From: Branchiostoma floridae
Lineage: Eukaryota; Chordata; Leptocardii; Amphioxiformes; Branchiostomatidae
Direction: 5' to 3'
Length of the DNA: 64,000 bases
Assembly (NCBI RefSeq): GCF_000003815.2
Contig: NC_049995.1
Coordinates: 15,657,163-15,721,162, forward strand
Shown here: in pieces, positions 44,690-45,497 of the stretch
Position numbering within the stretch: position 1 is the first letter of the stretch
Layout of the letters: each line of letters opens with the position of its first letter
Notes under the pieces: generated by a model
Told to the model about the DNA's origin: nothing
Databases searched by the model: none
Seen by the model: the letters and a program-made list of their open reading frames with translations, nothing else
Position numbers and translations under genes: made by a program

Positions 44690-45375
44690 ATTGACAAACA
44701 AACAAACAAACAAACAAGCAAGCAAACAAGTAAACAGCTACCTAACAACATGATTTTATTTTTTGCAGAAAAGCGAGTGAGGAGTTTGACATGGATGAGT
44801 GCATAAAAACAAATAAACAATTGTTATTATTTCTTTCAGAAAAACAAGTGAGGTGTTTGACAATGGAAAAGCTCTTCTAAAAAACAAACAAATGAATAAA
44901 CAACTTGTTCTTATTCCATGCAGAAAAACGATGAGTTTGACATGTATGAGTGCATTAAGCACTTCTAAACAGACAAACAAACAAACAAACAAAGAAGTGA
45001 ACAGCTATTAACAGCTTTTACTTTATTCCTTCCAGAAAAATGAGTGAGTGCAAACAAACAAACAAATAAATTAACAGCTACGTAACAACATGATTTTATT
45101 TTTTTGCAGAAAAACAAGCAAGGATTTTTGACATGGATGAGTGCATGGCCGCCATGATGTTGAGGCCTTAACTGCTTCTTAACAAACAAACAAACGAACA
45201 AACAAACAAACAAGTAAGAAACTACATAACAAGAATTGTTTGTTTTTTCTCCAGGAAAACGAGTGAGGAGTTTGACATGGATGAGTGTATGGCTGCCATG
45301 ATGTTGAGGCCTTAAGTGCCTCATAACAAACAAACAAACAAACAAACAAACAAATCTTGTTGTTATTCGTTGCAG
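44690..45375 (+). pseudogene. array of six decayed 5' copies of exon 2, with (AAAC)n spacers
   Basis: Copies of the acceptor and first bases of exon 2 start at 44769, 44840, 44924, 45036, 45110 and 45255, before the functional exon at 45376. Each follows a pyrimidine-rich CAG and begins AAAAAC(G/A)A or GAAAACGAGTG. Most continue GAGTTTGACATGGATGAGTG. Unit lengths are 71, 84, 112, 74, 145 and 121 bp, joined by AAAC microsatellite and a repeated AACAACATGATTTTATT. The copies at 45110 and 45255 also keep GCCATGATGTTGAGGCCTTAA. The 45255 copy is in frame with exon 1 and would end the protein [19 protein letters not shown]. The 45110 copy stops after RKTSKDF. Copies nearest the real exon are best preserved. 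Confidence 0.85.
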
Positions 45376-45497
45376 GAAAACGAGTGAGGAGTTTGACATG
45401 GATGAGTGCATGGCCGCCATGATCCTCACCAGCCTCTCCTGCAGCCCTGTCTGCAGACAAGCATCAGACGACAGCTCTGTGAGCTCCGGTACATCAG
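45376..45497 (+). CDS. ZNF704-like transcription factor, coding exon 2
   Basis: A 122-nt exon after acceptor TTATTCGTTGCAG, with donor TCAG|GTACGT, entering in phase 2 and leaving in phase 1. It encodes [25 protein letters not shown] and then a serine-rich [14 protein letters not shown]. This matches the conserved family block (ZNF704 [26 protein letters not shown]; ZNF395 [18 protein letters not shown]). Joined to exon 1 it restores IDVPKKDR-KTSEE, as in relatives. The exon's two halves have been copied separately into its flanking introns (44690-45375 and 45560-45735). The leucine-rich core may affect nuclear export, an inference only. Confidence 0.9.

Follow-up and report, generated by a model that had tools for sequence, protein, structure and literature searches.

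The window, that is, the whole stretch of 64,000 nucleotides of Branchiostoma floridae DNA that was analysed (contig NC_049995.1, positions 15,657,163 to 15,721,162, forward strand), contains three exons of a gene that the first-pass annotation labels ZNF704-like, a label that fits. All positions are those of the window, and a slash within a motif marks the exon/intron boundary.

23363 to 23964, + strand: open frame that contains exon 1; last exon base 23964, phase 2 (...GAC AG/gtattt)
45376 to 45497, + strand: exon 2, 122 nt; entry phase 2, exit phase 1
46211 to 46470, + strand: exon 3 of the host gene

The protein joined from exons 1-3 matched a single Pfam family, PF15997 (DUF4772; E 2.3e-6), and gave no notable match when solved structures were searched with it. 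A pattern search of the window, judged by eye, revealed no convincing zinc finger exon, and a literature search for ZNF704 and amphioxus returned no paper. The main mRNA most likely runs from exon 1 (23964) through 45376-45497 to exon 3 (46211).

Exon 2 is bracketed by pieces of itself: its start recurs on the left side and its end on the right side. The earlier description of a repeat built from the 5' end alone was correct for the left side, but it missed two 3'-end copies, whose strong donors follow 45625 and 45732. The elements of the array are as follows.

44694 to 44736, + strand: AAAC-type microsatellite, the outermost element of the 5' array
44749 to 44804, + strand: 5' copy 1; acceptor ends at 44768, then 36 nt of exon-2 start
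44820 to 44867, + strand: 5' copy 2; acceptor ends at 44839, exon-2 start decayed
44904 to 44955, + strand: 5' copy 3; acceptor ends at 44923, exon-2 start decayed
45016 to 45051, + strand: 5' copy 4 (weak); acceptor ends at 45035, ~15 nt of exon-2 start
45090 to 45171, + strand: 5' copy 5; acceptor ends at 45109, 48 nt like the exon-2 start, then GTTGAGGCCTTAA
45235 to 45315, + strand: 5' copy 6; acceptor ends at 45254, frame continuous with exon 1 up to a TAA stop at 45313-45315
45519 to 45546, + strand: (AAAC)7 linker between exon 2 and the first 3' copy
45562 to 45625, + strand: 3' copy D1; donor CAG/gtacgt; differs from exon 2 by 6 synonymous changes and a 12-nt deletion that keeps the frame
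45669 to 45732, + strand: 3' copy D2; donor CAG/gtatgt; more altered than D1

The six upstream copies of acceptor plus exon-2 start that had been reported at 44769, 44840, 44924, 45036, 45110 and 45255 were all recovered (45036 as a weak one), as were the AAAC-type linkers separating them. All six starts show AG/RAAA acceptors (R, A or G) followed by an exon-2-like continuation, and the acceptor spacings are 71, 84, 112, 74, 145 and 121 nt. The copy at 45255 is identical to exon 2 at 46 of the first 48 nt, with a local score of 44 compared to at most 17 in 300 shuffles. When the exon part alone was used, four of the six copies exceeded the scan threshold of 14 (scores 23-44), and outside the array the scan returned chance-level matches only (14-15, at 4990-5152). 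The copy at 44840 was detected by repeat finding and BLAST. The copy at 45036, which BLAST did not recover, is marginal, with ~15 exon-like nt, and was recognised by its acceptor, AAAAATGAGTGAG and linker similarity. Copies 45110 and 45255 have the tail GTTGAGGCCTTAA in common (93% over 84 nt) and, since this tail is absent from exon 2, they derive from one copy; a single inserted base shifts the frame of the former.

Downstream, the final 64 nt of exon 2 (minus 12 deleted nt) and the donor recur twice behind AAAC-type linkers, with donor spacings of 128 and 107 nt. A downstream search with the last 41 nt of exon 2 reached a score of 37, compared to at most 13 in 300 shuffles. The 12-nt deletion of D1 sits between CTGCAG repeats. 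The suggestion that the array might be slippage debris suits most upstream copies, whose exon parts carry indels and truncations, but suits D1 poorly, which differs from exon 2 only synonymously.

The other exon edges were searched in the same manner. No copies of the exon-1 donor edge or of the exon-3 3' edge stood above shuffles in the flanks searched (215/300 and 210/300 shuffles reached the score, respectively). One candidate was considered at exon 3.

46075 to 46107, + strand: lone candidate copy of the exon-3 acceptor plus ~13 nt (weak)

This acceptor copy at 46095 (46095-46210), with GAGAGAAGCCGCC, scored 16.6 bits with the matrix described below, compared to 13.2 for real exon 3. It looked right by eye and was rejected, the exon part (first 40 nt) being not significant, with 28/300 shuffles reaching its score. 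Elsewhere in the window, intron 1 holds a 688-aa open frame at 26514-28577 (+) with a DDE_1 match (E 1.5e-19), that is, a DDE transposase gene, presumably pogo-like. Tc5-type and Psq-type helix-turn-helix domains also matched this frame, short of their cut-offs, and a run of short TETPTATATSST repeats lies within the coding sequence. Simple-repeat stretches at 18198-18837, 40323-40831 and 52645-53010 contain long open frames, in one strand or in both; judged by eye, these frames are unlikely to be genes.

The splice dinucleotides are intact throughout the array (AG in 6/6 upstream copies, GT in 2/2 downstream copies). It should be noted that the upstream copies were listed with an AG-containing pattern; an exon-only scan revealed no AG-less copy. 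All bit scores given here come from matrices not calibrated on lancelets. The six upstream acceptors scored 11.3-14.5 bits; that of real exon 2, at 11.1, was lower than any of them, and no more than 0.5% of the region's 1416 other AGs were as strong. Acceptor strength appears retained even in the decayed copies, as the first-pass annotation had noticed. Under a crude mutation model, acceptors of such strength had a P of 0.003-0.08 per copy at the divergence observed, even with only half of the differences counted, and altered tract positions were pyrimidines in 21/33 cases compared to half expected, a modest excess. This weak test, made on related copies, suggests that the upstream acceptors have lost less strength than free decay predicts.

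The donors scored 9.6 (D1), 9.9 (D2), 9.6 (exon 2) and 6.4 bits (exon 1), and acceptors within D1 (tgtag) and D2 (tgcag) scored 4.8 and 6.6 bits. Among the upstream units, the best GT of the 45110 unit reached 8.3 bits at 45213, beyond the stop of that copy, and that of the 44840 unit 8.0 bits at 44847, 8 nt past an acceptor. The GT sites of copy 45255 are weak (best 5.6 bits, 8 nt past the acceptor; next 2.6), compared to 6.4 for the exon-1 donor, and the remaining upstream units do not exceed 5.6 bits.

Copy 45255 is indeed in phase with exon 1, as had been reported, and reads to MAAMMLRP before a stop; its usage would append MLRP after the conserved MAAM and end the protein there. A transcript spliced at this site would most likely contain exon 2 in a lengthened form with a premature stop and be a target of nonsense-mediated decay, and unproductive RNA is the most that we expect from this copy. 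Given the stop and the presence of only weak GT sites, this copy is unlikely to yield a stable truncated protein. The 44840 and 45110 units could conceivably give cassette or poison exons, because of their GT sites of 8.0 and 8.3 bits.

The first-pass annotation knew of no described system of this kind, yet such arrays have already been published from amphioxus under the name of mirages (PMC3087553; PMC3902484). In PMC3087553, mirages are described as minisatellite-like tandem duplications of exon/intron boundaries, 5' or 3', with AG/GT retained in many copies, and they are given for the Adh3, globin and troponin C genes. For example, the mirage of BflGb6 concerns the 5' edge (150-160 bp) and that of BflGb9 the 3' edge (157 bp), and the Adh3 mirages (Canestro 2002, as given in PMC3087553) have a unit length of 10-72 bp and show somatic instability. 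Similarly, the exon-3 and exon-4 edges of PGBD5 are described with 60- and 108-bp imperfect tandem repeats, whose copy number is assembly-dependent and part of which is annotated as exon in lancelets (PMC3902484). Regular splicing is said to be undisturbed at the mirages discussed in these two sources (PMC3087553; PMC3902484), and by this precedent splicing at the present array is probably normal as well. Mirages have also been suggested to give rise to new introns (PMC3087553). No selection measure on copies was found in the accessible text of that paper, whose main text contains no words beginning with 'synonymous' (PMC3087553).

The array around exon 2 has the same make-up: its tandem unit spans an exon/intron boundary, AG/GT are retained in many copies, and its spacings fall within the published range of 10-160 bp. 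With the BflGb6 and BflGb9 mirages (PMC3087553), the likeness lies in minisatellite-like copies over an intron/exon boundary with AG/GT retained. In contrast to them, here both edges of one exon are copied, the linkers are AAAC tracts, several copies are strongly decayed, and one 3' copy combines synonymous-only changes with an in-frame deletion. The Adh3 mirages are the same kind of array in another gene, with units of 10-72 bp compared to spacings of 71-145 nt here, and the PGBD5 repeats are likewise imperfect tandem repeats at exon edges, again in another gene. Intron gain by internal tandem duplication was reportedly put forward by Rogers in 1989 and by Gao and Lynch in 2009. The duplicated edges seen here likewise carry ready splice sites for new introns or exons, whereas the gained intron itself belongs to that model and the duplicated edges alone are observed at this locus.

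We surveyed exon edges elsewhere in the genome at matches to three Pfam models (globin, TCP1 and proteasome). At 78 exon loci (9/9 globin matches, 50/60 TCP1 and 19/21 proteasome) we looked for direct repeats that extend beyond the exon, two rows (L045 and L054) being excluded as too short. The exon limits are HMM match limits, and in-frame stops occur in 15/78 matches. Repeats reached out of 9/78 exon loci compared to 16/155 equal-length stretches in the flanks (Fisher P 0.82; each locus contributed two such stretches, 1/156 being dropped for N and some possibly containing other exons), indicating no enrichment of tandem repeats at exon edges in this sample. Since exon and flank rates are alike, mirages look like the exon-hitting share of general tandem duplication, and the present array looks like one of many in the genome. 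The same genome contains globin arrays with the published spacings: L014 has three copies upstream of the exon at 150-158 nt, corresponding to BflGb6, and L010, which lies 42 kb from another globin match, has a spacing of 157 nt, corresponding to BflGb9. Such arrays point to a Branchiostoma genome, most likely that of B. floridae. An AAAC linker is not typical, as an AAAC/TTTG tract lies beside only one of the nine surveyed arrays (L046). That array (1404-1559, reverse complement) is a proteasome exon with a 74-nt edge duplication adjoining the TTTG/AAAC tract, like the present one. Another proteasome exon edge (L062, 1602-1909, reverse complement) shows several tandem copies ~64 nt apart with GT donors.

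We then compared the substitutions in the copies. D1 differs from exon 2 by 6 synonymous and 0 nonsynonymous changes in 21 codons (P 0.006), under a null in which the copy evolves freely and the exon accepts synonymous change alone, so that ~43% of the D1 differences would be synonymous. The two differences of copy 45255 from exon 2 in 48 nt are both synonymous. Between D2 and exon 2 there are 11 changes, 6-7 of them synonymous and 4-5 nonsynonymous, with no significant synonymous excess (P 0.13-0.30), and D1 and D2 differ by 4 synonymous and 4 nonsynonymous changes. Parsimony by hand with D2 places one or two changes on the D1 branch; most of the six could therefore be the exon's, and these counts do not show that D1 was constrained once it had separated from D2.

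A synonymous excess was also observed in the surveyed arrays. In eight of them, the nearest copy showed 25 synonymous and 10 nonsynonymous differences, compared to 14.6 synonymous expected (P 0.0004). Inclusion of L059 gave 25/37 (P 0.0013); it was kept outside the main count, its two differences lying 18-19 nt beyond CAG/GTACTG, taken as the donor. The most diverged copies gave 31/45 synonymous (P 0.00014), and the five arrays with repeats >50 nt gave 18 synonymous and 8 nonsynonymous (P 0.004). This excess comes from few arrays, three of which have repeats of only 28-37 nt, and from exons delimited by HMM matches. On these counts, the copies may for a time have been coding.

The array and its anatomy can be read directly from the DNA. 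With a probability of about 85%, we favour a joint reading in which this mirage arose by tandem duplication of both exon-2 edges, seeded by AAAC, with normal main splicing and with exchange between copies and exon. Repeated tandem duplication of the exon edges would have built a minisatellite at both edges of exon 2, the AAAC linker repeats probably seeding misalignment. The exon part of the upstream copies would then have mostly decayed, with acceptors that still look strong, and by unequal exchange or conversion copies and exon edge may swap places over time. That copies and exon have traded places is suggested by the substitution counts: the ancestry of the copies would run partly through functional exons, which is our preferred reading of the synonymous excess. 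For this excess, we rank mutual replacement before capture from other alleles, and the latter before an alternative coding use of D1.

Capture from other alleles would mean that the array is neutral debris alone, its copies having been taken from the exon of another haplotype by unequal exchange; the synonymous excess would then date from an initial divergence of exon and copy as functional alleles. This is possible, though we do not think it probable. Lancelet polymorphism is high, which counts in favour of such capture. The length of BflGb6 arrays also varies between haplotypes (PMC3087553). However, D1 differs at 6/~17 synonymous sites and L010 at 9/~28, which is deep for alleles of a single species. 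An unlikely reading makes D1 a living alternative coding segment, in which exon 1 would be joined to D1 (at tgtag/ACAAG or ccag/TCTAT) and D1 to exon 3, to the exclusion of exon 2. The computed frames fit: exon 1, D1 and exon 3 join in frame, the conserved LTSLSCSP block being lost, and since exon 2 joined to D1 gives a stop, the two would be mutually exclusive. Moreover, the D1 donor scores the same as that of exon 2, and six of six changes are synonymous. Against this, the tgtag acceptor is ordinary (4.8 bits, matched by 11% of AGs), and 4/6 changes lie upstream of it, with 1 upstream of ccag; a D1 exon would therefore not explain all six. Somewhat less likely still, the upstream acceptors would be decoys or poison sites tuning the level of exon-2-containing mRNA, the competition raised in the earlier annotation. 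Six of six acceptors are at least as strong as that of exon 2, the 8.0- and 8.3-bit GT sites in two units could end cassette exons, and the crude mutation model rarely yields such strong acceptors (P 0.003-0.08 per copy). Yet the copies share ancestry, so that they do not count as six independent tests, their reference is the weakest acceptor of the seven, and the pyrimidine excess is modest (21/33 changed tract positions). Published mirages are moreover said to leave regular splicing undisturbed (PMC3087553; PMC3902484), and by that precedent a function of the upstream acceptors appears unlikely.

We regard it as very doubtful that mirage copies form a standing reserve of coding sequence, with the AAAC microsatellite acting here as a frame switch. 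When AAAC counts of 3-12 were tried, read-through from exon 2 across the linker to the D1 donor was open solely at 5, 8 and 11 (2 modulo 3), and the sequenced allele, with 7 AAAC units, meets a stop. If this idea were true, the conserved block would be present twice in the protein encoded by alleles one AAAC unit longer, and this could explain the purely synonymous divergence of D1, including that upstream of its internal acceptors. An assembly artefact is extremely improbable. Ebner 2010 (PMC3087553) does report a mirage whose assembly in the genome draft was aberrant. However, the copies here are diverged, with 77.8-91.4% identity to exon 2 plus flank in BLAST pairs, whereas misassembled reads would tend toward near-identical copies, and a search of the genome with exon 2 matched this locus alone.

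If copies do not in fact diverge mainly synonymously, the array would be merely one among many tandem repeats in a repeat-rich genome. If they truly do, lancelet exon edges would turn over by copy replacement, and the intron-gain model could then be put to the test with long-read assemblies and cDNA.
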